Source of the DNA: a virus
Strand: one strand, 5' to 3'
IMG/VR virus record: IMGVR_UViG_3300005613_000030
Coordinates: 22,608 to 86,607 of that record
DNA length: 64,000 bases
Shown here: one piece after another, positions 4,216 to 29,617 of the stretch
How the letters are laid out: each line of letters begins with the position of its first letter
Numbering within the stretch: position 1 is the first letter of the stretch
The notes under the pieces: model-generated
What the model was told of the DNA's origin: nothing
Seen by the model: the letters and a program-made list of their open reading frames with translations, nothing else
Databases searched by the model: none
Made by a program: the position numbers and the translations under genes

Positions 4216-4476
4216 ATGCCATATATTACAATTAAAAATAGAAAGCAATTCGATAAAATTCTAGATGAGGTAAAGAGTGCCTATCCTACTAATGCTGGAG
4301 AATTAAATTACTTAATCACATCAATATGTAAGATTTGCTTAGATAATAGTAGAAGAAAATATCAAAACTACAATGATGTTCTAGGGGCATTAGAGGGTGT
4401 TAAATTAGAGCTTTATAGACGATATATCGCAGAATACGAAGACGAAAAAATCAAAGAAAATGGAGATGTACAATGA
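4216..4476 (+). CDS. Small conserved phage/bacterial protein, DUF6899-like
   Basis: An 86-residue acidic protein starting after a strong AAGGAGG site. The pattern MPYI near the start, AGELNYLIT in the middle, LGALEGVKLELYRR and an ending around KIKENGDV match a small family of unknown function that I recall as DUF6899, widespread in phages and bacteria. The function is unknown. It lies between the polymerase and the SSB gene and its stop overlaps the next ATG (ATGA), so it belongs to the replication operon. The family name is from memory. Confidence 0.7.
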   Translation: MPYITIKNRKQFDKILDEVKSAYPTNAGELNYLITSICKICLDNSRRKYQNYNDVLGALEGVKLELYRRYIAEYEDEKIKENGDVQ

Positions 4477-4799
4477 GTCGAGAATTTGGAGATGATTGTG
4501 GTAGCTTTTTTCATGAAAAGATACGTAATGCGGTTAATAACTGCAAATATGAGGGTAACTATGAATTAACAAAAAAATGGGGTGAATTTTTACAAGAGTT
4601 TTATAACATTGCATATTCTATATCCTCCTGTGAAGCTAGTGATACTTGTGAGAGTGATCTTATCATGGATACTATTTACAGACTACCACTGTTGCAGGGA
4701 AAACTCGATGAAATACAACAATACGTACAATTACATAAAACAATAGCAAATCACGCTGTACGAGATTATATTAACAAGGAGAAAAAAGATGGCTGTTAA
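4473..4799 (+). CDS. Hypothetical 108-residue protein in replication operon
   Basis: Begins at the ATGA overlap with the preceding gene, with GGAG just upstream. It is mostly helical by composition and has several Cys residues (C9, C24, C53, C59) without a clear zinc-binding spacing. No family is recognised. It overlaps the next gene by 11 bases, so translation is probably coupled. Confidence 0.7.
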   Translation: MSREFGDDCGSFFHEKIRNAVNNCKYEGNYELTKKWGEFLQEFYNIAYSISSCEASDTCESDLIMDTIYRLPLLQGKLDEIQQYVQLHKTIANHAVRDYINKEKKDGC

Positions 4800-5274
4800 A
4801 TACTGTCGAGTAAATGAAGCGCCTAGTGATATTACGTCAGAAGAATATATTATCACTATGCCGAAGTTTTTTGAAGAGATTAAAAAAGCTAGTCGTTTTC
4901 GGGGACAACAGAGTGTAATTACTACAAACTATTTAAGAGCTATTTTTGTAGAGATAGTATCAAAATACGATATTGATGTCAATCCATATACTGACATGCA
5001 TTTAGCTCGTTATAACGGACGACCGTCAACAACTGATGACAGCACATCGGCAATTATAAATGAAATAATTCAAAAAGAAAAACCCGATATAATTGGTAAA
5101 GCCCTTGATTTTGCTATTCGTAATCGCCCTAAAAAAACTAAAATTATTTATTTTGTTGCGCCAGATTTTACTCATACTGGGGCTTTTATTACTAATGGAA
5201 TGGACAGTATCCAACTAAAAGAGATTGATACATTATTAAATAAGAAAAAGAAAAAGTCAGCTAAGAAAGAATAA
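4789..5274 (+). CDS. Hypothetical 161-residue protein in replication operon
   Basis: Starts inside the end of the preceding gene, with AAGGAG eight bases before the ATG. It looks like a mixed alpha/beta globular protein with a beta segment KIIYFVAPDF near 118-127 and a lysine-rich tail (KKKKKSAKK). No family is recognised. A promoter-like site immediately after its stop suggests it ends this operon segment. Confidence 0.7.
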   Translation: MAVKYCRVNEAPSDITSEEYIITMPKFFEEIKKASRFRGQQSVITTNYLRAIFVEIVSKYDIDVNPYTDMHLARYNGRPSTTDDSTSAIINEIIQKEKPDIIGKALDFAIRNRPKKTKIIYFVAPDFTHTGAFITNGMDSIQLKEIDTLLNKKKKKSAKKE

Positions 5275-5279
5275 TATTA

Positions 5280-5288
5280 TGGTATAAT
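5280..5288 (+). promoter_or_regulatory. Extended -10 promoter before the SSB gene
   Basis: TGGTATAAT sits just downstream of the preceding stop. An ATG at 5295 lies exactly six bases after the hexamer and would be at the predicted transcription start, in frame with the SSB gene. The ATG at 5355 has a Shine-Dalgarno-like AAAGGA upstream. Confidence 0.65.
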
Positions 5289-5354
5289 ATAATTATGCCG
5301 AAAGGTAGAAATAATAACAATGCCACTTTAGGTAGCAATAAAAAAGGATTAAGC

Positions 5355-6425
5355 ATGGCAAAGATTTCCCTGAATATGGATTCCCTAAAACCTAAGAAAG
5401 AATGGAAACGTCACAAAGTTCAAGACGGTTCTAATACCTTTCGTTTTCTTCCACCTTTTGGACCTGAATCAAACGGTTACCATTATCGTAAATGGGGTGT
5501 AATTTGGGGTCTTGTTGATCCTGTTTCTGGTAGAAAGCGACCTTTTGCATCTACATCTACTTTTGAAGGTAAATGTCCAGTTTACGAGTATTTAGATGTC
5601 CTTAAAGTTCAGATTAAAACACTTGAAGCTCAATTGATTCAATCTGGTATGTCGGAAGCTGATATTAAAGCTCGTTTAAAAGATACTAATACCTTTATCG
5701 GTAACCTTCGTCCTAAAACTGTATTTGCTTACAATGCATGTGATAAATCTGGTACAGTCGGTATCTTAGAATTAAAGAAAACGGCACATGATGAGTTATG
5801 TAAATTGATTAATCAATATATTAGGGATTATAATCAAGATCCGACATCGTTAAATAGTGCTATGGATGATTCAGGTGTATGGTTTAATATTACGCGTGAA
5901 GGAACTATGTTTGAAACTAAATACGGTGTTGTTAAGAATCAAACTCGTGTAAAAGATCCCAATACTGGTGCATTATCGTATCAAGATGATAGAACTGCAT
6001 TACCGGAGCATGTAGTTACTGATTACGAGAATTTAGCATATGATTTAAATTCAGTTTATCAAAAGAAAACTTACGATGAATTAAAAGAGATCTTAATTGC
6101 TAATTTATCGTATCTAGTCGAAGACAATCCAGATTTAAAAGTTGAAGGGTTTTACGTTGATACTTCAACAATTCAGCAGCCAGCAGTACAACCAGTAAAT
6201 GCCCCCGTTACACCACAGGCTACATCAAAACAAGGTGCGGGTAAGATTAACATAAACATGGGTGCTTTAAAGACTGAAGATGATACTACAATTGCTGCGC
6301 CTGCGGCACCACAACAACCGACAGCAACGCAATCAGTCACTATGACCACCCAAGCGACACAACCAACTAGCACTGAAGATACAGATGACCTTCTTAAAAT
6401 GGCTGATGATATCTTCAATCAATAA
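5355..6425 (+). CDS. Single-stranded DNA-binding protein, T4 gp32-like
   Basis: A 356-residue protein that would coat ssDNA during replication and recombination. The N-terminal region reads KKEWKRHKVQDGSNTFRFLPPFG and onward, the signature of phage gp32-type SSBs (basic stretch, then R-x-L/F-P-P). Only part of the Cys/His zinc pattern is obvious (C in EGKCPVYEYL). The last 90 residues are Pro/Ala/Gln/Thr-rich and end in an acidic tail (TEDTDDLLKMADD), as expected for the partner-binding tail of SSBs. I chose ATG 5355 because it has a ribosome-binding site and gives the family-like start. An in-frame ATG at 5295 would add 20 residues if a leaderless transcript is used. It sits next to UvsY-like and RecA-like genes. 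Confidence 0.85.
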   Translation: MAKISLNMDSLKPKKEWKRHKVQDGSNTFRFLPPFGPESNGYHYRKWGVIWGLVDPVSGRKRPFASTSTFEGKCPVYEYLDVLKVQIKTLEAQLIQSGMSEADIKARLKDTNTFIGNLRPKTVFAYNACDKSGTVGILELKKTAHDELCKLINQYIRDYNQDPTSLNSAMDDSGVWFNITREGTMFETKYGVVKNQTRVKDPNTGALSYQDDRTALPEHVVTDYENLAYDLNSVYQKKTYDELKEILIANLSYLVEDNPDLKVEGFYVDTSTIQQPAVQPVNAPVTPQATSKQGAGKININMGALKTEDDTTIAAPAAPQQPTATQSVTMTTQATQPTSTEDTDDLLKMADDIFNQ

Positions 6426-16552: not shown

Positions 16553-18454
16553 ATGGGAATTTTCGGTAAATTTGGTGAATATTTAGCAAAGAGTCAGAAA
16601 GATCAAATAGATGAATTAATGAAAGCCGATGGTGATGATTTAGTTGAAACACCAATGACATTAGAAGATGAAGAAAATAAGATTGGTAGAAAAGCTATCA
16701 TTGATGATCCGTATTTTGATCATCAACAAACGTCAACTATTTATAGATCTAAGCAATCGCGTTTAACTAATAAGACGTTAAAAGATGTTTCTTTAAGAGA
16801 TTGGTTAGTAAGTGCTATTATTCAAGTACGTGTTGATACATTGATGCGCTTTAGTAGAAAACAGTATAAGAAATTTGATATGGGATATCGAATTATAAAG
16901 CTCGATCAATCACATGAATATACTAATGAAGATAGAGAAGAAATTGCTAATTTAGAAAACTTCATATACAATTGTGGTAGAACTGAAGGAACTCCTCCAG
17001 ATGATAAGTTGTTATTTGGTGATTGCTTAAAGAAGATAGTTAGAGATGCATTAACTTTTGGATACATTGCTGTTGAGAAAGTATCCACTAGAAGAGGTGC
17101 ACTACATCGTTTTAGACCATTACCAGCAGAGCAAATTTATCATATTAATAAAGAAACTGCTAAAAAACAAATAATTCAAGAAGCTGCAGCTGCTAGAAAA
17201 ATGTATAAACCAACATCAGATAATGACCCAAGAATGGATCATGAAATCAATGAAGTAACAATTGATAAATATAAATATTGTCAAGTGTCATTTGATAATC
17301 GCACGTTAGCAGTATTTGGTGATGAAGATATGGCATTTAAGTTATTTAATCCTCAGAATTTTGCCGATTCAATGGGGTATTGTTATAGTCCAGTAGAATT
17401 ATCAATATTAAACATATCAAACCATTTAAATTCTGAAAATTATAATGCTAATTTTTTCACACACGGTTATGCAGCTAGAGGATTACTACATCTTAAGGGC
17501 ACTGTAACTCAATCACAATTAATCGCCTTTAGAAGGCAATTCTACAATACTATCTCTGGCACACAGAACGCATGGAGAACACCGATTGTTGCTGGATTAG
17601 ATGATGTTCAATGGTTACCAATGAGTGGTAACGCACGTGATATGGAGTATATGAACTACAATATGCATTTAATGCGAGCCATATGCACTCAATTTCAAAT
17701 TGACCCTATTGAATTAGGTATGGATTTTCTTACCTCTGGTACAGGCAGAGCATCTGGAGCTGGTCAACAAGGGAATCAGCAAAAAATTGAATACTCAAGG
17801 GAAAGAGGTTTATATCCAATTTTAATGTTTATTGAAGATTTTATTAATTGCGATATCATACCTGCCATTGATCCTAAATTAGCAAAAAAATATTGCTTTA
17901 GATTTGAAGGATATACTGATGAGACACCACAAACTGAAGTAGCTTTATTGCAAGCTGAAATGACTGTTCATAAAAGTATGAATGATCTTCTTGATTTAGC
18001 TAGAAAAGACCGTATGAAGCATCCAATTGCTGATTTACCGATGAATGCAGCTTTTTGGGCTAATGTTGAAAAGCATATGACAAAAGGTGAAATACGAGAA
18101 TTCTTCTTCAATGATAAAGGCGCAGCAGAAAGAAAAGAACTCCAATATTTTCCAGCTGATCCAGCATTCTTAAATTGGCAGCAAATGTTAATGGCTATGG
18201 ATGCTCAAAAGAAACAAGAAGAAATGCAGAAAGAGCAAATGCAAATGCAAGCTCAACAAGCTAGTCATGCAGAAGAAGAGCAGAGACGAGCTGCAGAAGA
18301 GCATGAGGCTAATATGAGCGATAGATCAGCTCAACAAGCACATGCAGCTGTTTCTGCAGGGCGTGAAAATTTACGAGAAGAATCTTCAAAATTTGGCAAA
18401 AATGCAGCAACTAATATTAATGGAAAAGTGGTTAAAAATCCTTTAAATGAGTAA
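16553..18454 (+). CDS. Portal protein
   Basis: A 633-residue protein that would form the dodecameric DNA-entry vertex. It sits directly after TerL (HNH gene excepted) and before the protease/capsid genes, with a strong GAGGGAG site. The body (RDWLVSAIIQVRVDTL, FGYIAVEKV, FRPLPAEQIYHI, LGMDFLTSGTG) shows the pattern of HK97/SPP1-type phage portals: wing, stem and crown segments. The last 100 residues are a Gln/Glu/Ala-rich coiled coil, as in many portals. A strong terminator follows the stop. Confidence 0.85.
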   Translation: MGIFGKFGEYLAKSQKDQIDELMKADGDDLVETPMTLEDEENKIGRKAIIDDPYFDHQQTSTIYRSKQSRLTNKTLKDVSLRDWLVSAIIQVRVDTLMRFSRKQYKKFDMGYRIIKLDQSHEYTNEDREEIANLENFIYNCGRTEGTPPDDKLLFGDCLKKIVRDALTFGYIAVEKVSTRRGALHRFRPLPAEQIYHINKETAKKQIIQEAAAARKMYKPTSDNDPRMDHEINEVTIDKYKYCQVSFDNRTLAVFGDEDMAFKLFNPQNFADSMGYCYSPVELSILNISNHLNSENYNANFFTHGYAARGLLHLKGTVTQSQLIAFRRQFYNTISGTQNAWRTPIVAGLDDVQWLPMSGNARDMEYMNYNMHLMRAICTQFQIDPIELGMDFLTSGTGRASGAGQQGNQQKIEYSRERGLYPILMFIEDFINCDIIPAIDPKLAKKYCFRFEGYTDETPQTEVALLQAEMTVHKSMNDLLDLARKDRMKHPIADLPMNAAFWANVEKHMTKGEIREFFFNDKGAAERKELQYFPADPAFLNWQQMLMAMDAQKKQEEMQKEQMQMQAQQASHAEEEQRRAAEEHEANMSDRSAQQAHAAVSAGRENLREESSKFGKNAATNINGKVVKNPLNE

Positions 18455-18767: not shown

Positions 18768-19508
18768 ATGTTTGACGAATCAGATTACATTAAGAAGGGA
18801 AATCATAAATATTTTAAAGCTGTTTGCAATACTTGTGGTAAAGACAGAGGATATCAGCGATTATCTAGTGTAATTCGAAACTGTTTATCATGTGCTACAA
18901 AGAAGAGATTATCTGATCCTAAAAATAACCCTATGTATGGTAAAAAACATAAAAATACAGCGCAGTTCCGCAAAGATACATATAGCAATGTTGATTATAG
19001 TGATACTAAAATACGTTACAGTAAAAATGGTAATAAGTGTATTACCTATAAACAAAGATGTCCAATATGCAATAAAAGCGTTGGATATAGGCGTCATATT
19101 GATGCTAAACGCACATGTCGAGCATGTCAAAGCGATAAGTTACGTAAATACTCTAAAGAACATAAACGAATACGTTACTCAATGAAAGCTAATTTACACT
19201 CTAGGCTGAAGCAGCATTTAATTAATAAGAATAAGAAATCTACGTTCGATATATTAGGGTATACTGTAAATGACTTAAAAATACACTTAGAATCACTATG
19301 GGAACCGTGGATGTCTTGGGATAATTATGGCGCTTATTGTTCATATAAAAGAACATGGCAAATTGATCATATTAAACCAGATAGTTTATTTAATTATGAA
19401 TCGATAACAGATCCGGAATTTAAAGAGTGCTGGAGTTTAAGTAATTTACAACCCTTAGATAGCTTTAAGAACTTAAAAAAAGGCAACAAATATAATAAAT
19501 CAGTATAA
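18768..19508 (+). CDS. HNH homing-type endonuclease, divergent member
   Basis: A 246-residue enzyme. Residues 17-45 and 95-125 hold Cys-pair fingers (CNTCG, CLSC; CPICN, CRAC). Between them is NNPMYGKKH, the NUMOD3 DNA-binding motif. The catalytic block is more diverged than in its relatives: TWQIDHIKPDSLFNY replaces WHIDHIKPLSSFDL, so the first His is Gln but the second is kept. The end LSNLQPLDSFKNLKKGNKY is typical. It also carries a promoter-like site at its 3' end. Activity is likely but less certain. Confidence 0.8.
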   Translation: MFDESDYIKKGNHKYFKAVCNTCGKDRGYQRLSSVIRNCLSCATKKRLSDPKNNPMYGKKHKNTAQFRKDTYSNVDYSDTKIRYSKNGNKCITYKQRCPICNKSVGYRRHIDAKRTCRACQSDKLRKYSKEHKRIRYSMKANLHSRLKQHLINKNKKSTFDILGYTVNDLKIHLESLWEPWMSWDNYGAYCSYKRTWQIDHIKPDSLFNYESITDPEFKECWSLSNLQPLDSFKNLKKGNKYNKSV

Positions 19509-22033: not shown

Positions 22034-22576
22034 ATGGCTAAAACTTGTGAAATTTGTTCAAGAGTCATATGTGAATTATCAAAACAAAAAAAGTATTGCT
22101 CTAAGCAATGCCGTGCTGTAAAAAAAATAATTACAGCTAAACAATGGAATTTACAGAATAGTGTAAAACATGCAGCACATCAGGAAAAATGGCGTAAGAA
22201 TAATAGAGAATTAGATCGCATTAGATCTTTAGAAAGTAAAAAACGAGCTACAGTTAAGCAGAAATTAAAAACAAGAATAGCAACTAACCTGCGCAGTCGT
22301 ATTCGTAAGGCTCTTCAAAAAGAGCAAAAAACAGGTTCAGCAGTGAGAGATTTAGGCTGTTCTATTGTGGATTTTAAGCAGCACTTAGAATCTAAATTTA
22401 CAGAAGGTATGACATGGGATAACTACGGTAGAAATGGCTGGCACATAGATCACATCAAGCCATTAGCTAGTTTCGATCTTGAAGATCTTGAAAAGTTTAA
22501 GAAAGCTTGTCATTATAGTAACTTACAACCCCTTTGGGCTAAAGATAACTTAAAAAAGAGTGATAAATATGAGTAA
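22034..22576 (+). CDS. HNH homing-type endonuclease upstream of the prohead protease
   Basis: A 180-residue local-family HNH enzyme: CEIC and CSKQC finger at 5-26, basic helical linker, GSAVRDLGCSIVDFKQHLES, MTWDNYG, WHIDHIKPLASFDL (catalytic) and NLQPLWAKDNLKKSDKYE. Its last codons (AAA TAT GAG TAA) contain the ATG of the protease gene, so insertion preserved translation of that gene. Confidence 0.85.
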   Translation: MAKTCEICSRVICELSKQKKYCSKQCRAVKKIITAKQWNLQNSVKHAAHQEKWRKNNRELDRIRSLESKKRATVKQKLKTRIATNLRSRIRKALQKEQKTGSAVRDLGCSIVDFKQHLESKFTEGMTWDNYGRNGWHIDHIKPLASFDLEDLEKFKKACHYSNLQPLWAKDNLKKSDKYE

Positions 22577-23996
22577 AAATAAATCATTAGAAGTCGATAT
22601 GTGTGCTGGATCTGAGTTATGCGACTCGCAAGGTGAAACACTTTCAATTGAGGGTGCCGACATTAGTGAGTTAGAAGCTGGACGTGGAAGATTAAATGAT
22701 AATCACGGGAAATCATATATGTCTAGCATTGGCCGCGTAACTGGTGCTAAAAAAATATTTAAAGCTGAAGACTGCGAAGATGAACGTCAACTGTATTATT
22801 GGGATAAAATAAAAGCTCCATATTTATATGTTAAAGGTGTTTTATATAACGATGAAGATCACTCTAATGCAAAAGCGGCTGCAGCAATTTTAAGAAATAT
22901 CCATAAATCTGATTGTCCATTAAGGATTAAAGCCTCGGTAGAAGGTGGCGTAATAAGTCGTGGTGTTAAAGATCCCAACAGATTAGAAAGAACTAAAGTT
23001 CACTCTATAGCGCTGACGTTCACGCCTGCGAATCAAGCCACGTTAGTAGAACCACTTAACTTATCAAAATCATTAGATCCTAATCAGAATAAAATAGATG
23101 AAAATCTAATTAAATCAGTTATACATTTAGCTAAAAAAGACGAAGAAATACCATCTTTTAGACATGTACAACGAAATGCTCAAGCAGAAAAAATAGTAGC
23201 TAATATAGATAAAATACAAAAATTAGCAAAAGCAACAGGTATTGAAGTACAATTTAAAACAACAGATCCAGGGTTATTAATAAAAAAAGCGATTGAATCT
23301 AAGGTATTAAGTAATGTACAAAAAATTAATGCCTTAATGAAAGCAATACGGACTAAAAACAATACAGCATATGGAATACGTCAACCTAGTGCTGCTTCTA
23401 AAACACCTGTAACCCCACAAGCTGGGAAGACATATAATGCTGATAGAACATCTAAAGTAGTTAAGCCTGCTCAACCAGCTATAGCTAAAGATACTTTTCA
23501 TAATGACAAATCTAGTGGCCCACTAACCGAAAATACTCCTGCAGGTGGAACTGAAACTTCTATCCCGTTAAAGACTGGAAAACAGTTTGTACAGAGACAG
23601 CTGATACATAGTATTGCAAAAGGTATCCATGAAGGTACACATAATATTAATGACATACAAAAGCAATTAAATGATAAAGGAATTCATCCAGATCGAGTTA
23701 GCAAAATAATAGCACATTTACATGATTATTCATCTAAGTTTCATAAATCAATAGACGAGATTGATGATCTAGATAAAGCACTAATGGCTGGCACTGGTGG
23801 AGCTGGAGCTCCAACTGATTTAACGGGTGGTGGTGTTTTTCAATCTGAATCATTAGAGGGTGATGGACGTTTTAAATACATTACTTGTGATAACTGCGGT
23901 AAAGAACAGATACATAGTAAACATCAAGTGAAATGCCGTGATTGTGGTAAAAATTTCAGTCTAAATAAGTTATTCAACACTATGGTACAAAAATAA
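22569..23996 (+). CDS. Prohead maturation protease with capsid-like motif and zinc ribbon at the C-terminus
   Basis: A 475-residue protein. The N-terminal 160 residues carry the herpes/HK97-type prohead protease pattern: LNDNHGKSYMSSIGRV (catalytic His candidate in DNHG), then IKASVEGGVISRG (catalytic Ser candidate) and VHSIALTFTPAN. A long polar linker follows. Residues 401-430 (LDKALMAGTGGAGAPTDLTG and on through GGVFQSESLE) closely match residues 26-55 of the major capsid protein. A zinc ribbon (CDNCG and CRDCG) ends the chain. It would cleave scaffold and capsid during head maturation. ATG 22569 lies inside the HNH tail; GTG 22560 is a weaker alternative. Confidence 0.75.
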   Translation: MSKNKSLEVDMCAGSELCDSQGETLSIEGADISELEAGRGRLNDNHGKSYMSSIGRVTGAKKIFKAEDCEDERQLYYWDKIKAPYLYVKGVLYNDEDHSNAKAAAAILRNIHKSDCPLRIKASVEGGVISRGVKDPNRLERTKVHSIALTFTPANQATLVEPLNLSKSLDPNQNKIDENLIKSVIHLAKKDEEIPSFRHVQRNAQAEKIVANIDKIQKLAKATGIEVQFKTTDPGLLIKKAIESKVLSNVQKINALMKAIRTKNNTAYGIRQPSAASKTPVTPQAGKTYNADRTSKVVKPAQPAIAKDTFHNDKSSGPLTENTPAGGTETSIPLKTGKQFVQRQLIHSIAKGIHEGTHNINDIQKQLNDKGIHPDRVSKIIAHLHDYSSKFHKSIDEIDDLDKALMAGTGGAGAPTDLTGGGVFQSESLEGDGRFKYITCDNCGKEQIHSKHQVKCRDCGKNFSLNKLFNTMVQK

Positions 23997-24072
23997 AATC
24001 AATTATTTCATATATTTATAATCTATATAAATAAAAAAAAATCACATTAATTTTAACTAATCTTTAAGTCAA

Positions 24073-24130
24073 CTTAAGGTTGGGTATAAGTATGCTTAAG
24101 CAGCCACTTATGGTATTATGAAATCTTAAG
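24073..24130. repeat. Three CTTAAG palindromes around the capsid-operon promoter
   Basis: CTTAAG occurs at 24073-24078, 24095-24100 and 24125-24130, the first followed by GTTG. The block brackets a TGGTATTAT promoter-like site. TTAAGGTTG recurs upstream of the virion gene at 39821. These may be binding sites for a phage regulator of late genes. The 207-base gap 23997-24203 otherwise holds no gene I can see. Confidence 0.4.
24111..24119 (+). promoter_or_regulatory. Extended -10 promoter for capsid genes
   Basis: TGGTATTAT lies 85 bases upstream of the 24204 ATG. The long leader, strong AAAGGAGAT site and position suggest the main promoter of the scaffold/capsid genes. Confidence 0.5.
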
Positions 24131-24203
24131 TTAAACTGTAAGGTATTAATATTAACAATGTTCTGTTTATTTCAAGGGTAACAGAACGATAAAGGAGATT
24201 AAA

Positions 24204-24578
24204 ATGGGTAACAAAGTAGCAATCCTAGACAAACTCAAAAGAAACCTTGACATGAGATCTATTTCTTATGTTGACAGTGGTTCTTTTATTGTTGTTGATA
24301 CAGATTGGACTATCTCTTATGAAGACGCTAGCATTCAAAAGCCTATGGGTGGAATAGATGATAGTTCTTCTCCATTTCTAGGGATTGGCATTGGTAATCC
24401 TGGAAAGATTAAGATAGTTGATTCAGCTAATTTACTAAATGTTATGATAGATAGTGAAGTAAAGCAAATTGTATTTGCTTTTGTTTGTAGTTTCGCTAAT
24501 GATAAACTGTTAGTTGATAGTGGCGCCAATGAACGTGTTGTTCCTGGACATTCAGATTTTAATGGTTTAGGACAATAA
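24204..24578 (+). CDS. Probable head-associated 124-residue protein
   Basis: Starts after a strong AAAGGAG site between protease and scaffold. Largely beta by composition (SFIVVDTDWTISYED), with a Gly/Pro-rich middle (FLGIGIGNPGKIKIVD). No family is recognised. Given the site and strong translation signal it could be a minor head or decoration protein. Confidence 0.6.
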   Translation: MGNKVAILDKLKRNLDMRSISYVDSGSFIVVDTDWTISYEDASIQKPMGGIDDSSSPFLGIGIGNPGKIKIVDSANLLNVMIDSEVKQIVFAFVCSFANDKLLVDSGANERVVPGHSDFNGLGQ

Positions 24579-24602
24579 TTTACTCTATCTAAGGAGACTG
24601 AG

Positions 24603-25322
24603 ATGAAAAACGAAGAATTAACGAAATCTCTTGTTAGTCTCATCGATGAAACTCTAGAGGAACTAGAGGAACTGAAGAAGTCAAAATTTACTGCTGCAGA
24701 AATCAAAATTGAAGGACCAGGAGATAAAGATGTTGCTGGCAAACCTACCAATGGCGAATTAGATGCTAAAAAAGCAGAAGATGAAGATGAAGAAGACGAT
24801 GAGAAAAAAGTAGAAAAAGGCGTTTTAGACGAAGCTGAAAAGTCTGAAAAAGACGAAAAAGACGAAGAAGACGAAGATAAGAAAAAAGATAAGAAAATTG
24901 CTCAAAAAGAAATTGATAAGCATAATGAAAAAAAGCATGGCGAAAAAGAAGATGAAGATTCTGCTTATAAGTCAATGCCAGAAGAAGATAGCTTAAAGAA
25001 ATCTCTAGAAGAACAAGAAGAACTTATTAAATCTTATGTTGATTCTAAATTTGCTTCTTTTGAAGAAAAAATTGCGGGCTTGATTAAAAAGATCGATGAG
25101 ATCGGTGATGCTCCTGTTGAAAGAAAAGGCGTTTCTGCTGAAAACTTTAGTGCTCTTAAGAAATCTGAAGAAGAAGTAGCACCTCTTTCTAAGGCGCAAG
25201 TAGCTGATAAGCTTTTTGAACTTAAAAAATCAGGAAATATTGTAGACACAGAAGATATTATCAGGGTTGAAACTGGCTCAAATGCAGACTTGATGTCAAT
25301 CGCTGAAAAATATAAATTATAG
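24603..25322 (+). CDS. Scaffold-like protein
   Basis: A 239-residue, extremely charged protein immediately before the capsid gene, where tailed phages keep the scaffold. It has an acidic/lysine low-complexity region (repeats of DEDEEDDEKK type, about residues 55-125), a coiled coil (LEEQEELIKSYVDSKF near 146-161, then FEEKIAGLIKKIDEIG) and a short structured end. The sequence is too biased for family assignment; the role is inferred from position and composition. The protease probably removes it during maturation. Confidence 0.7.
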   Translation: MKNEELTKSLVSLIDETLEELEELKKSKFTAAEIKIEGPGDKDVAGKPTNGELDAKKAEDEDEEDDEKKVEKGVLDEAEKSEKDEKDEEDEDKKKDKKIAQKEIDKHNEKKHGEKEDEDSAYKSMPEEDSLKKSLEEQEELIKSYVDSKFASFEEKIAGLIKKIDEIGDAPVERKGVSAENFSALKKSEEEVAPLSKAQVADKLFELKKSGNIVDTEDIIRVETGSNADLMSIAEKYKL

Positions 25323-25345
25323 TAAACTCTTAAGGAGAGAATAAG

Positions 25346-26800
25346 ATGAACAACGACATGGTTAATCAAATTTCAAATGGATTGAGTCAGGGTCTAGTGT
25401 CTCCAGAGGACGTTGAACGACTTAATAAGGCGATCACAGCAGGTTACGGCGGAGCCGGAAAACCTACGGATCTTACTTACGGCGGCGTACTTCAGGCAGA
25501 ATCACTTGAATCAACTCTAAAATCAATTACTTTCGACATGAAAAATCTTAAGTTTTGGCCTGCTGTTGCAGTAGACAAAGCTTATAACTTGTTCGAGCAG
25601 TACAACAGACTAGTTGGATACGGATCCGATTCTAGTCCTTACATGGGCGAAGGCGGAGCTCCTCAAGAAGAGGATTCTACTTACATTCGTGATGGACAGA
25701 GAATTGTATTCTTTGGAACACGAAGAAAAGTATCCCATCAAATGACTTTAGTTAGAACTACAGTAGGTGATGTTGTAGCTCAACAAGCTAAAGAAGGAAC
25801 AATGCATCTCCTAAAGAACATCGAAAGAGAACTTTATTGGGGACATGCTCATTTCGCTAATGTTGCTACTGGTGCTCAGAATGGATCAGTTTCCGATCTT
25901 CCTGCTAATTCAATTGCTATGAATGGTCTTCTTCAACAACTGTTGAAAGGCGACGATGATGAGCAACATAAATCAGGTGATTTCGCTGGTTTCGGAGATT
26001 TCCGATCAATAGCTCAAGATCTAGGCGGAAACGTTATGGCTCAAGATGATATTGAAGATCTATCAGTTATTGCTTTGGAAAACTTTGGTAATCCAAATGA
26101 ATTACATGCTGAACCTCTAGCTATATCTGCTTTTATTAAGCAATTTTATCCACAATTCAGAAGCGCTCCAGGAATGTCAGCGCAGACAGTTGGATATGAT
26201 GTGAATAAAATGACCACATCAGCTGGTACTGTAGATTTTAAACCAAATCTATTTTTACGTCCACGTTATCAAGCTCGATCAAGAGCCGTCAATGCTAATG
26301 CTCCTGTATTAGGTGCTGCTTCTTTCACAGCTGCTGCTGCTGGAACTGGTGGAAATATTCCTGCTGGAGATTATCAATATAAAATGACTTTTGTAAATGA
26401 CTTTGGTGAGTCAGCTCCTATTCAGTTATCTGGTGGAGCAGTTACAGTTGCAGCTGGTGAAGTTGTTTCTTTAACTTTAGCAAATGTTCCTTCAAATGTT
26501 AAATCTATAAAAGTTTATAGAAGTAATGCTGGTGGAGCAGTTGGTGCAGAGTATTTTATTGCTAACTATAAATTAGCTGGTAGTGTTTATGTAGATTCTG
26601 GAGCTAAAGAGCCAGGACTAGGTGAAGCTTTCTTACTAGATATGAGTGCTGAATGTTTACGCTTTAAGCAACTTTCCCCACTTAGTAAGATAAATTTCGC
26701 GATAGTATCTACTGCACTTGAGTTTGGTATTGTACTATACGGAGCTCTATTTGTTTATGCGCCGAGATTTAATTGCGTATTTAAGAATGTCGGTCGTTAA
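25346..26800 (+). CDS. Major capsid protein
   Basis: A 484-residue HK97-fold-type shell protein with its own AAGGAGAGA site. The N-terminal arm contains LNKAITAGYGGAGKPTDLTY, then GGVLQAESLE (26-55). The body (VFFGTRRKVSHQM, LERELYWGHA-like NIERELYWGHAHF) and ending (INFAIVSTALEFGIVLYGALF) resemble SPO1/Twort-group capsid proteins. Like them it has an Ig-like insert (about residues 325-435, GDYQYKMTFVNDFGESAP and YRSNAGG). A shift toward more C-ending and G/C-rich codons at the 5' end suggests high expression. A strong terminator follows. Confidence 0.9.
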   Translation: MNNDMVNQISNGLSQGLVSPEDVERLNKAITAGYGGAGKPTDLTYGGVLQAESLESTLKSITFDMKNLKFWPAVAVDKAYNLFEQYNRLVGYGSDSSPYMGEGGAPQEEDSTYIRDGQRIVFFGTRRKVSHQMTLVRTTVGDVVAQQAKEGTMHLLKNIERELYWGHAHFANVATGAQNGSVSDLPANSIAMNGLLQQLLKGDDDEQHKSGDFAGFGDFRSIAQDLGGNVMAQDDIEDLSVIALENFGNPNELHAEPLAISAFIKQFYPQFRSAPGMSAQTVGYDVNKMTTSAGTVDFKPNLFLRPRYQARSRAVNANAPVLGAASFTAAAAGTGGNIPAGDYQYKMTFVNDFGESAPIQLSGGAVTVAAGEVVSLTLANVPSNVKSIKVYRSNAGGAVGAEYFIANYKLAGSVYVDSGAKEPGLGEAFLLDMSAECLRFKQLSPLSKINFAIVSTALEFGIVLYGALFVYAPRFNCVFKNVGR

Positions 26801-26925: not shown

Positions 26926-27684
26926 ATGTTTAATCGTGAACGAACTAAAGAGCTTTTTGGATATGATTTAGATCTTTCAGTTACACGCCGTACTAAAAAA
27001 GAAATTGAGCAATCAAATGGTGTTGTTAGAAAGCATCTAAAAGTTGTAGATAATTGTCCTATATGCAATATTGAAAGAATTATATTACTTCGGCAATCAA
27101 GAAAAAATAAACCATGTAGTAAATGTTTCCATAATCTACCAACGACAATAGCGGCAAAAAGAAATCAAACTAAATTTGTATCTGAAGAGACTAAGCAAAA
27201 AATGAGAGATAATCATTGGTCTAAAAATGGTGGAGTATCTGCATTTAAAGGTAAAAAACATACAGAAGACACTAAAAATAAATTGCGATTACATAGACAG
27301 CGACAATGTTTAAATTACACAGACGAACAGTTAAAACAGTTTCATATTAAGGCATCTTGTACTGTTCGTAATATTTCAATAGAGGATTTTGATGGCTTCT
27401 CTTCTCCTAAAAACACATTAATTAGACAATCAGCAGAAGGTAAGCAATGGCGAATAGATGTCATGGCTAAAGCAAATTTTACTTGCGATAACTGTAATGT
27501 ACGCGGAAAGAGTTTAGTAGCTCACCATCTTGAGGCATTTCATTGTAATCCGGAATTACGTTTTGATATCAATAATGGTGTCTGCTTGTGTCGAGATTGT
27601 CATGCTGAATTTCATACACAATACGGAAAGCGAAATAATACTAAAATACAATATGAAGAGTTTCATTGTAAAAATAAAAGTTAA
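26926..27684 (+). CDS. Classical HNH endonuclease with NUMOD3 region
   Basis: A 252-residue HNH homing endonuclease of a different subfamily from the others here. Residues 45-65 hold CPIC and CSKC. The middle (SEETKQKMRDNHW, FKGKKHTEDTKNKLR) has NUMOD3-like motifs. The C-terminal nuclease is FTCDNCNVRGKSLVAHHLEA (180-199) with GVCLCRDCHAEFH (217-229), the standard HNH with two zinc knuckles. It sits alone after the capsid terminator, so it is a free-standing mobile nuclease. Confidence 0.9.
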   Translation: MFNRERTKELFGYDLDLSVTRRTKKEIEQSNGVVRKHLKVVDNCPICNIERIILLRQSRKNKPCSKCFHNLPTTIAAKRNQTKFVSEETKQKMRDNHWSKNGGVSAFKGKKHTEDTKNKLRLHRQRQCLNYTDEQLKQFHIKASCTVRNISIEDFDGFSSPKNTLIRQSAEGKQWRIDVMAKANFTCDNCNVRGKSLVAHHLEAFHCNPELRFDINNGVCLCRDCHAEFHTQYGKRNNTKIQYEEFHCKNKS

Positions 27685-27756: not shown

Positions 27757-28968
27757 GTGATTATATATAAAATAACTAATCTAATTAATAACAAAATATA
27801 TATAGGTCAAACAACACAGCCATTAAATTGTCGATGGAATGATCACTGTCATTCAAAAAGAAAAAATAACGCTATTACAAATGCTATTCGTAAATATGGT
27901 AAAGATAATTTCTCAATAGAGGTGTTAGCAACAGTGTACAAAACTGACGATTTAAATAGATTAGAGAAATTTTATATAGAAGAGTTTAACTCTTTGGCAC
28001 CTAAAGGTTACAATCTTAAAACTGGTGGTCAAGATCACAATCGATACACAGATGAAAGTAAAAAGAAAATGAGCAGTGCTAGAATTGGTACTACTATGCC
28101 AATTGATGTACGTAAAAAAATAAGTAAAACACACAAACAAAGATTTAAAGATAATCCGTTATTATCACAGCAGAGAAGTGAAATGGTAAAAAAAGCATGG
28201 ACAGATCCACAATACCGAATAAATAAGAGTATTAAGCAAAAAGAATATTGGTCTGATGACATTAATCGTAAACGGCATAGTGCAATAGGGAAACAACTTG
28301 TTTCTGATCCTGAATACTTAAAAAAAGTTAGCAATGGTGTTAAGAAGGCACAACAACGCCCAGAGGTAAAACAACGCATGGAACAATTTTATAAAACTAA
28401 ATGTAAAAAAGTTATCAATGATTTACAAGAAATATTTGATTCAATTAAGGATGCTGCAGAGGCATATGGTATTCAATCATCTTCAATCACAAAACAAATT
28501 CAAGGTGAATACAAAACAGCTGGTAAAAGAACTTGGAAATACTTAGATGACCGTCAAACAGTGTACATGTTAATTGGAGCTCCAGCATCAGGTAAGTCAT
28601 GGGTAGCAAATCAATTATTAGATCAATACGATTACGTATCGTATGATAAAAATCGTAAAAAAGACCATTTACAATTATTAGCTAATCCTTCTGATAAAGA
28701 TAAGTTATACGATCCGACATTTAAAATTAGTACAATGATCAGACGACATTCAGATGAATTTAATTTTATTATAGTATGTATTCACGAATCGGAAGATGTA
28801 TTACGAGATCGTATAGCAAGTCGAAATGGTCAATGGACCGACACAATATTAAAGCGAAATGAGCAAGTTCGTAAACGATATGAGAAATATGGAAATGGTG
28901 GGATTATTGGCACGTCTAATGAAGTATTAGAATATTTAAAATCGTTAAATAGAGTAAAAGATGAATAA
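27757..28968 (+). CDS. GIY-YIG endonuclease fused to a P-loop kinase domain
   Basis: A 403-residue fusion. Residues 1-95 are a GIY-YIG nuclease (IYKI, KIYIGQT, a conserved Arg in CRWNDH, and GYNLKTGG). Residues 100-225 are basic with NUMOD3-like helices (YTDESKKKMSSARIG). Residues 228-266 are NUMOD1-like (FDSIKDAAEAYGIQSSSITK). From 269 a P-loop domain begins: VYMLIGAPASGKSW (Walker A 274-281), then DRIASRNGQW, a kinase lid-like segment, as in polynucleotide or small nucleotide kinases. M271 could be the start of an ancestral stand-alone kinase. GTG start with AAGGAG. The next gene overlaps by eight bases. Confidence 0.8.
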   Translation: MIIYKITNLINNKIYIGQTTQPLNCRWNDHCHSKRKNNAITNAIRKYGKDNFSIEVLATVYKTDDLNRLEKFYIEEFNSLAPKGYNLKTGGQDHNRYTDESKKKMSSARIGTTMPIDVRKKISKTHKQRFKDNPLLSQQRSEMVKKAWTDPQYRINKSIKQKEYWSDDINRKRHSAIGKQLVSDPEYLKKVSNGVKKAQQRPEVKQRMEQFYKTKCKKVINDLQEIFDSIKDAAEAYGIQSSSITKQIQGEYKTAGKRTWKYLDDRQTVYMLIGAPASGKSWVANQLLDQYDYVSYDKNRKKDHLQLLANPSDKDKLYDPTFKISTMIRRHSDEFNFIIVCIHESEDVLRDRIASRNGQWTDTILKRNEQVRKRYEKYGNGGIIGTSNEVLEYLKSLNRVKDE

Positions 28969-29617
28969 ATCAGAACACATAATTAAACGTTATGAAAATG
29001 GACTAGTTCAATATGAACAGTGGCTAGTTAATGATCAGTTTCATAGAGTTGATGGCCCAGCTTATATTAGTTACCATAAAAATGGGCAAGTTAAATGTGA
29101 ACAGTGGCATGTTAACAGCCAGTTACATAGAGTTGATGGCCCAGCTTATATTAATTACTACGAAAATGGACAAGTTAGTTGTGAACAGTGGCGTGTTAAC
29201 GACCAGTTGCATCGAGTTGATGGCCCAGCTTATATTAGTTACTACAGTGATGGTGAGGTTGAATATAAACAGTGGTATGTTAACGACAAGCGGCATAGAG
29301 TTGATGGTCCAGCTTATATTAGTTACTATGAAAATGGACTAGTTGGATGTGAGCAGTGGCGTGTTAACGACCAGTTTCATCGAGTTGATGGCCCAGCTTG
29401 TATTAGTTACTATGAAAATGGACTAGTTAGATGTGAGCAGTGGCGTGTTAACGACCAGTTGCATCGAGTTGATGGCCCAGCTTATATTGGTTACTACAAA
29501 AATGGGCAAGTTAAATGTGAAGAGTGGAGAGTTAACGGTAAGCAATTAACTAACGAACAAATAGAAGAAATCAAATGGAGTTTACAATTTAACAAAGACT
29601 TAGAAGAGATACTGTAG
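28961..29617 (+). CDS. MORN-like tandem-repeat protein
   Basis: A 218-residue protein built of about seven 28-residue repeats of the form (E/K)NGxVxxEQWxVNxxxHRVDGPAYISY. The G-x-V-x2-E-x-W and HR-x-DGPA spacing resembles MORN/YwqK-type repeats found in bacterial and large-virus proteins, which form elongated beta solenoids. A short helical tail (NEQIEEIKWSL) caps it. The function is unknown. It overlaps the GIY-YIG/kinase gene and may have been acquired with it. Confidence 0.75.
   Translation: MNKSEHIIKRYENGLVQYEQWLVNDQFHRVDGPAYISYHKNGQVKCEQWHVNSQLHRVDGPAYINYYENGQVSCEQWRVNDQLHRVDGPAYISYYSDGEVEYKQWYVNDKRHRVDGPAYISYYENGLVGCEQWRVNDQFHRVDGPACISYYENGLVRCEQWRVNDQLHRVDGPAYIGYYKNGQVKCEEWRVNGKQLTNEQIEEIKWSLQFNKDLEEIL
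28997..29540 (+). repeat. 84-bp tandem repeat encoding the MORN-like units
   Basis: About six and a half in-frame copies of an 84-base unit with long stretches unchanged between neighbours (for example CGAGTTGATGGCCCAGCTTA). The high base identity indicates recent unit duplication or ongoing conversion, so copy number may vary between isolates. Confidence 0.85.

Follow-up and report, generated by a model that had tools for sequence, protein, structure and literature searches.

The head maturation (prohead) protease of this phage, and of nearly all SPO1-type relatives that we examined, carries a short copy of the N-terminal arm of the major capsid protein (MCP), and the two copies have changed together over long evolution. 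This suggests that the copy is a built-in tether, which would place the protease on the shell and be cut when its job is done. The docking and the cut in the protease are inferred.

A shared segment in the protease and the major capsid protein

We first examined the head module of the phage within the window, a 64,000-nucleotide stretch corresponding to bases 22608-86607 of an 86.6 kb IMG/VR virus record (IMGVR_UViG_3300005613_000030). The module runs from portal (16553-18454) through several small genes and homing-endonuclease-like genes to the protease (22569-23996), a 124-aa gene, the scaffold (24603-25322), and the MCP (25346-26800), with the protease, scaffold, and MCP genes and the features within them on the plus strand. 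The protease has its ATG at 22569 and comprises 475 aa, whereas the MCP has its ATG at 25346 and comprises 484 aa. Protease residues K403-E430, KALMAGTGGAGAPTDLTGGGVFQSESLE (23775-23858), align without gaps to MCP residues K28-E55, KAITAGYGGAGKPTDLTYGGVLQAESLE (25427-25510), with 21 of 28 positions identical. The best local alignment spans protease residues 394-441 and MCP residues 19-64 and scores 119, against a mean of 34 and a maximum of 53 in 200 shuffles. In a search of the whole record with the MCP, the protease copy was the only second match (59% over 44 aa, E 2.8e-9). The similarity is therefore real and far from chance. The observation made in a first-pass annotation, which had placed the shared motif at protease residues 401-430 and MCP residues 26-55, was confirmed, with coordinates right to within two residues. 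Its remark that SPO1-type capsid proteins have a related arm at the same place was also right, though understated, as the SPO1 protease gp3.2 itself carries the copy.

We then assigned the two proteins and their parts. The protease matched PHROG 1028 head maturation protease (E 8e-12) and was 40% identical to the Mx1 putative prohead protease. SPO1 and 812 homologues pass the Pfam Peptidase_S78 cut-off, though the protease of the window phage does not. Foldseek placed an AF2 model of the protease with herpesvirus proteases, which were the top hits (best E 4.9e-4). The catalytic domain, modeled as folded, covers about residues 1-165 (22569-23063), with likely catalytic residues His46 (22704-22706) and Ser123 (22935-22937). 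Both are invariant in 37 relatives and in nine diverse seeds including SPO1, 812, and LP65, and their catalytic role is inferred from this conservation. A helical, partly disordered linker follows (23064-23774), modeled with helices at 171-266 and 335-406 and disorder at 267-339. In the same model, the arm (401-432) is disordered, with pLDDT below 50, although it holds seven residues (K403, A407, G408, G411, P415, G421, and Q425) that are invariant in 37 proteases. After the arm, which lies near the C-terminus, comes a zinc-ribbon-like tail (23886-23945) with C440, C443, C456, and C459, which was modeled as folded (pLDDT about 74-90), has four Cys invariant in 37 relatives, and gave sub-threshold Pfam zinc-ribbon matches.

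The MCP matched PHROG 752 major head protein (E 4e-60) and SPO1 gp6.1 (PDB 9vel, E 4e-64). Its N-arm (25427-25510) contains K28, G33, P40, E52, and L54, which are invariant in 32 aligned MCPs including those of Herelleviridae. Residues 1-28 (25346-25429) form a predicted propeptide. An AF2 model of the MCP was poor (mean pLDDT 59.6) and gave no view of the arm site. The scaffold protein (24603-25322) is similar to the SPO1 gp3.3 scaffold (E 1e-5) and has K-S-hydrophobic sites, but no match to the arm.

Distribution and co-variation of the two copies

Next, we wanted to determine how widespread the shared arm is. Two scans of IMG/VR with the window proteins gave about 100 loci, while a mixed MCP alignment was too diverse to use as a scan query. 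In the window lineage, all 88 loci where a protease and an MCP were both found carry the arm in both, and the only other ORF with it is a partial ORF in one locus (L063). Absence of the motif from the proteases of all relatives had been named beforehand as grounds for refutation, and this condition was not fulfilled. The arm copy was also found in every Herelleviridae phage tested (SPO1, 812, Twort-like, Listeria, Enterococcus, Bacillus, Lactobacillus, Brochothrix, and Aerococcus), as well as in Myxococcus Mx1 and Morganella Mecenats66. With Herelleviridae and relatives added, 151 of 156 loci scored above all shuffles. Of the five exceptions, LP65 reflected a mislocated query and is positive. 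Loci L161 and L164 have a shortened arm that shares a lineage-specific PQS-x-EG with their MCP but is not above shuffles, and Bacteroides DAC16 and Chryseobacterium MA9V-3 show no match. Loci L131 and L132, a distant group, also lack the arm, and MT835500 shows none by eye. Lb338, AVP, ADU4, and Mecenats66 were positive, narrowly for AVP and Mecenats66 (scores of 58 and 54 against shuffle maxima of 48 and 50) and overwhelmingly for ADU4 (136 against 53). An independent library showed the same thing, as the MCP family PHROG 752 matches the tails of the SPO1, 812, Listeria, Brochothrix, and other proteases at its N-terminal end (E 1e-7 to 4e-5). The arm is not a general property of all protease and MCP pairs, since the HK97 and T4 pairs were negative. 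We also looked for the arm in further head proteins. Among flanking ORFs of 78 loci, the best other ORF scored a median of 30, against 93 for the protease, and one outlier at 45 (locus L072) looks like a spurious frame.

To examine whether the copies change together, we compared 78 phages with MCP cores below 90% identity over 28 columns. Own-pair identity averaged 0.65, against 0.46 for mismatched pairs, and none of 10,000 permutations reached it. As phages are not independent, lineages are the fairer unit. By lineage, own-pair identity is 0.54-0.68, while MCP arms of different lineages share 0.26-0.56 and protease arms 0.29-0.48. Within a lineage the own-pair excess is small (window lineage 0.653 against 0.645, p 0.02; SPO1 type 0.677 against 0.635, p 0.003). 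In a tree of 156 arms, the arms cluster by phage lineage rather than by gene. Window-lineage MCP and protease arms form one clade, as do the Bastille/Twort/Brock/Listeria set and the Mx1 set. Spacing between the conserved Gly and Pro differs among lineages and agrees between the two copies in 74 of 78. Brochothrix ADU4 (KSMTTGYNHGGTDQFNGQALRRQSL in MCP, KSMTTGYEHGGTDQTDGSALRRQSL in protease) and Morganella Mecenats66 (LTAGYETNVQGMQGGSALRIQSL and LVAGYGSDSADLSGGDALRKQSL) lost the usual Pro and replaced the usual Glu by Gln in both copies, and LP65 has GAANR in both. Independent drift after one ancient duplication would not do this, and we rejected that reading because own-lineage pairs are closer than between-lineage orthologues.

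We then asked whether DNA copying could maintain the match, as the two genes are neighbors and the segment is short. At positions where the two copies have the same residue, codons agree at 562 of 1,369, against 580 expected from codon usage (0.411 against 0.424). The likeness is thus kept by selection on protein rather than by gene conversion. A sequence accident, whether an old duplication or repeated gene conversion with no function in the protease, is contradicted by these data and is very unlikely, as presence in essentially all relatives and co-variation across lineages are not expected without selection.

The cleavage point and the layout of the two proteins

The deposited mature MCP chain of homologue 812 (9row, 439 aa) begins with the residue after Lys24 of the precursor, which is exactly the start of the motif. 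The equivalent position in the window phage is K28|A29, where removal of the propeptide is inferred. HK97 is cut at K103|S104, also at the start of its N-arm (PMC10275583). The Lys at the start of the protease copy is invariant in the proteases of 37 relatives and present in 76 of 78 dereplicated ones, and K403|A404 is the predicted self-cleavage site. The protease therefore has the same layout as the MCP, with the catalytic domain in place of the propeptide: propeptide or protease, then K| and the arm, then shell domain or tail.

The first-pass annotation had offered docking to the shell, a shared cleavage site, or action of the protease on itself. This interpretation was partly supported, with the evidence favoring docking together with a shared cut at the first residue of the motif. 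A cleavage site alone is unlikely to explain about 27 conserved residues downstream, as scaffold proteins are rich in the same K-S/A sites and carry no arm. That the scaffolds are cut at these sites is likewise inferred.

The same evidence bears on an exosite or self-substrate model, in which the protease recognizes the MCP arm through an extended exosite downstream of the K|S cut, and its own copy makes it an equally good substrate, for timed self-cleavage, or an autoinhibitory pseudo-substrate. The arm would then co-vary with the protease domain, not with the shell. The arm starts exactly at the cleavage point, the Lys is kept in both proteins, and the protease copy lies in the same chain as the active site, all consistent with this model. 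However, the scaffold sites indicate that the arm is probably not needed for cutting. In addition, the residues before the arm range from 215 to 883 in the window lineage, and some relatives insert repeat domains while Lys, arm, and zinc ribbon stay, which would be odd for a precise intramolecular fit. We consider this model unlikely, though it is not excluded.

Possible roles of the protease arm

With moderate confidence, we favor a model in which the C-terminal tail of the protease is a molecular mimic of the MCP N-arm. During procapsid assembly, it would dock into the shell site that receives MCP N-arms, recruiting a limited number of protease molecules to the inner surface, with the protease domain sitting where an MCP would carry its propeptide. 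When maturation starts, the protease would cut K|A or K|S at the start of the arm in MCP and, by the same rule, in itself. This would free the protease domain and leave the arm with its short C-terminal tail, here a zinc ribbon, on the shell. Our analysis establishes the shared arm, its near-universality in this phage clade, its lineage-by-lineage co-variation, its conservation at the protein rather than the DNA level, the conserved Lys at its start, and its disorder in the isolated model, and the start of the mature MCP at that point comes from the work of others on a homologue. The docking site and binding to it, recruitment, cleavage of MCP and scaffold by the protease in this phage, self-cleavage, and retention of the tail fragment are all inferences, made without binding, structure, or mutant data. 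In HK97, the N-arm is disordered while scaffold is present and takes the scaffold's place after cleavage (PMC10275583), so such a site exists in a related shell. Co-variation with a protease exosite or with scaffold would look similar, and the arm is not indispensable in every relative, as DAC16 and MT835500 have neither arm nor scaffold fusion.

Protease fusions provide some further context. In L161 the protease is fused to scaffold (PHROG 15087) and the arm is truncated, L164 likewise combines a scaffold fusion with a shortened arm, and the MA9V-3 protease has no arm but a long acidic, KS-rich extension that looks, by eye, like scaffold. This fits a recruitment role, although DAC16 and MT835500 show that the rule is not complete. 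It would also be expected if MCP N-arms bind the scaffold in the procapsid and the protease copy recruits protease to the scaffold core rather than to the shell, with fusion making scaffold binding redundant. This scaffold-binding alternative is not excluded but appears improbable, as the arm remains in the mature MCP after scaffold is gone, meaning that a mature-shell contact must also constrain it, and the behavior of the HK97 N-arm and the lack of both arm and fusion in DAC16 and MT835500 also speak against it.

A further possibility, compatible with docking but doubtful as the main purpose, is that the arm keeps the C-terminal fragment in the mature head as a minor shell component or ejected cargo, with the zinc ribbon or longer extensions as payload. 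Protease was detected in purified virions of three Herelleviridae, CKA15 (4 peptides, 29.5% coverage, PMC12282133), fRuSau02 (PMC5618024), and JS1 (PMC12977511), as expected if the arm-tail fragment stays, though without peptide positions these detections do not distinguish which fragment is present. In fRuSau02, the protein encoded between protease and MCP, presumably scaffold, was also detected, so residual assembly proteins may explain the result. CxxC..CxxC follows the arm in 43/43 window-lineage phages, and 514 and 970 further residues follow the arm in locus L027 and Mx1, respectively, whereas in the SPO1 type only about 55 residues follow it.

We also compared the arrangement with related systems. 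The Peptidase S78/U35 head maturation proteases of Herelleviridae (SPO1 gp3.2, 812 gp94, and the Listeria P100/A511 group; PHROG 1028) share the enzyme family, the gene order of protease, scaffold, and MCP, and the arm copy in the tail, while the window lineage adds a long linker and the C-terminal zinc ribbon. In the herpesvirus protease-scaffold system (UL26/UL26.5) and phage protease-scaffold fusions, a protease of related fold is brought to the shell by a C-terminal segment shared with another assembly protein. There the shared segment is scaffold, whereas here it is a copy of the capsid protein's own N-arm, and scaffold is a separate gene. HK97 has a separate protease, gp4, carried inside the procapsid, and a K|S cut at the start of the N-arm of its MCP, gp5 (PMC10275583, PMC12749128), but there is no arm copy in gp4 and the HK97 MCP carries its own scaffold domain. 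In encapsulins, a short disordered peptide at a cargo's C-terminus docks it inside an HK97-fold shell. Such cargo peptides are not known to copy a segment of the shell protein, whereas the segment here is a co-varying copy with its own predicted release site. Recruitment of a head protease through a shared C-terminal segment is thus known in principle, but we found no description of a co-varying copy of the capsid protein's own arm in the open-access literature searched, which leaves out subscription papers.

How tailed phages get a limited number of protease molecules inside the shell, and get rid of them again, is only partly understood. If the arm copy is the answer for SPO1, 812/K, and A511-type phages, the question becomes testable in laboratory strains with one deletion, lineage-specific arm pairs would let swaps test the binding site, and the arm would give a short, natural loading tag for large capsids. 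More tentatively, and rather less likely than not, a whole clade of large phages may recruit its head protease by capsid-arm mimicry, with the protease built into the shell as a false capsid subunit that frees itself at maturation and leaves an arm-anchored C-terminal peptide or cargo on the inner shell. The arm would then be a general tag for loading proteins into these heads. Some 600 deposited phage genomes hold a homologous protease.

Genes in and around the head module

Probable homing endonucleases crowd the head module, at window positions 18768-19508, 22034-22576, 26926-27684, and 27757-28968. The gene at 26926 matches NUMOD3, above its cut-off, and HNH_2 weakly, and that at 27757 is GIY-YIG fused to a P-loop kinase-like C-terminus; the other two look HNH-like by eye only. 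Window 28961-29617 encodes a 218-aa protein made of MORN_2-like repeats of about 22 residues (RVDGPAYISYYENGQV), just below the Pfam cut-off. Between protease and scaffold, a 124-aa protein (24204-24578) had no Pfam or PHROG match and is possibly a head decoration protein; Mx1 has a similarly placed small gene.

Contigs carrying close MCP relatives

Close MCP relatives (loci L180, L181, and L182) sit in MAG contigs labelled Saprospiraceae, Cytophagales, and Flavobacteriaceae. As phage contigs are often mis-binned, this is only a weak hint at Bacteroidota hosts.

Variation around the protease arm

Some relatives (protease ORFs of loci L047, L051, and L100) insert several hundred residues of short repeats, of the HFGPQHMDKALND-x-VRxAA type, near the protease arm, while arm and zinc ribbon are kept. 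In Mx1 (locus L001, 5003-8722) and locus L027 (2882-5476), 970 and 514 further residues, respectively, follow the arm. L027 contains DUF6321, above cut-off, and an HELGH motif. If the inferred self-cleavage occurs, these would be separate proteins left in the head. Finally, in loci L161 and L164, the protease, at about 4258-5931, is fused to scaffold (PHROG 15087, E 1.3e-12) and has a shortened arm, providing a natural test case for what the arm does.
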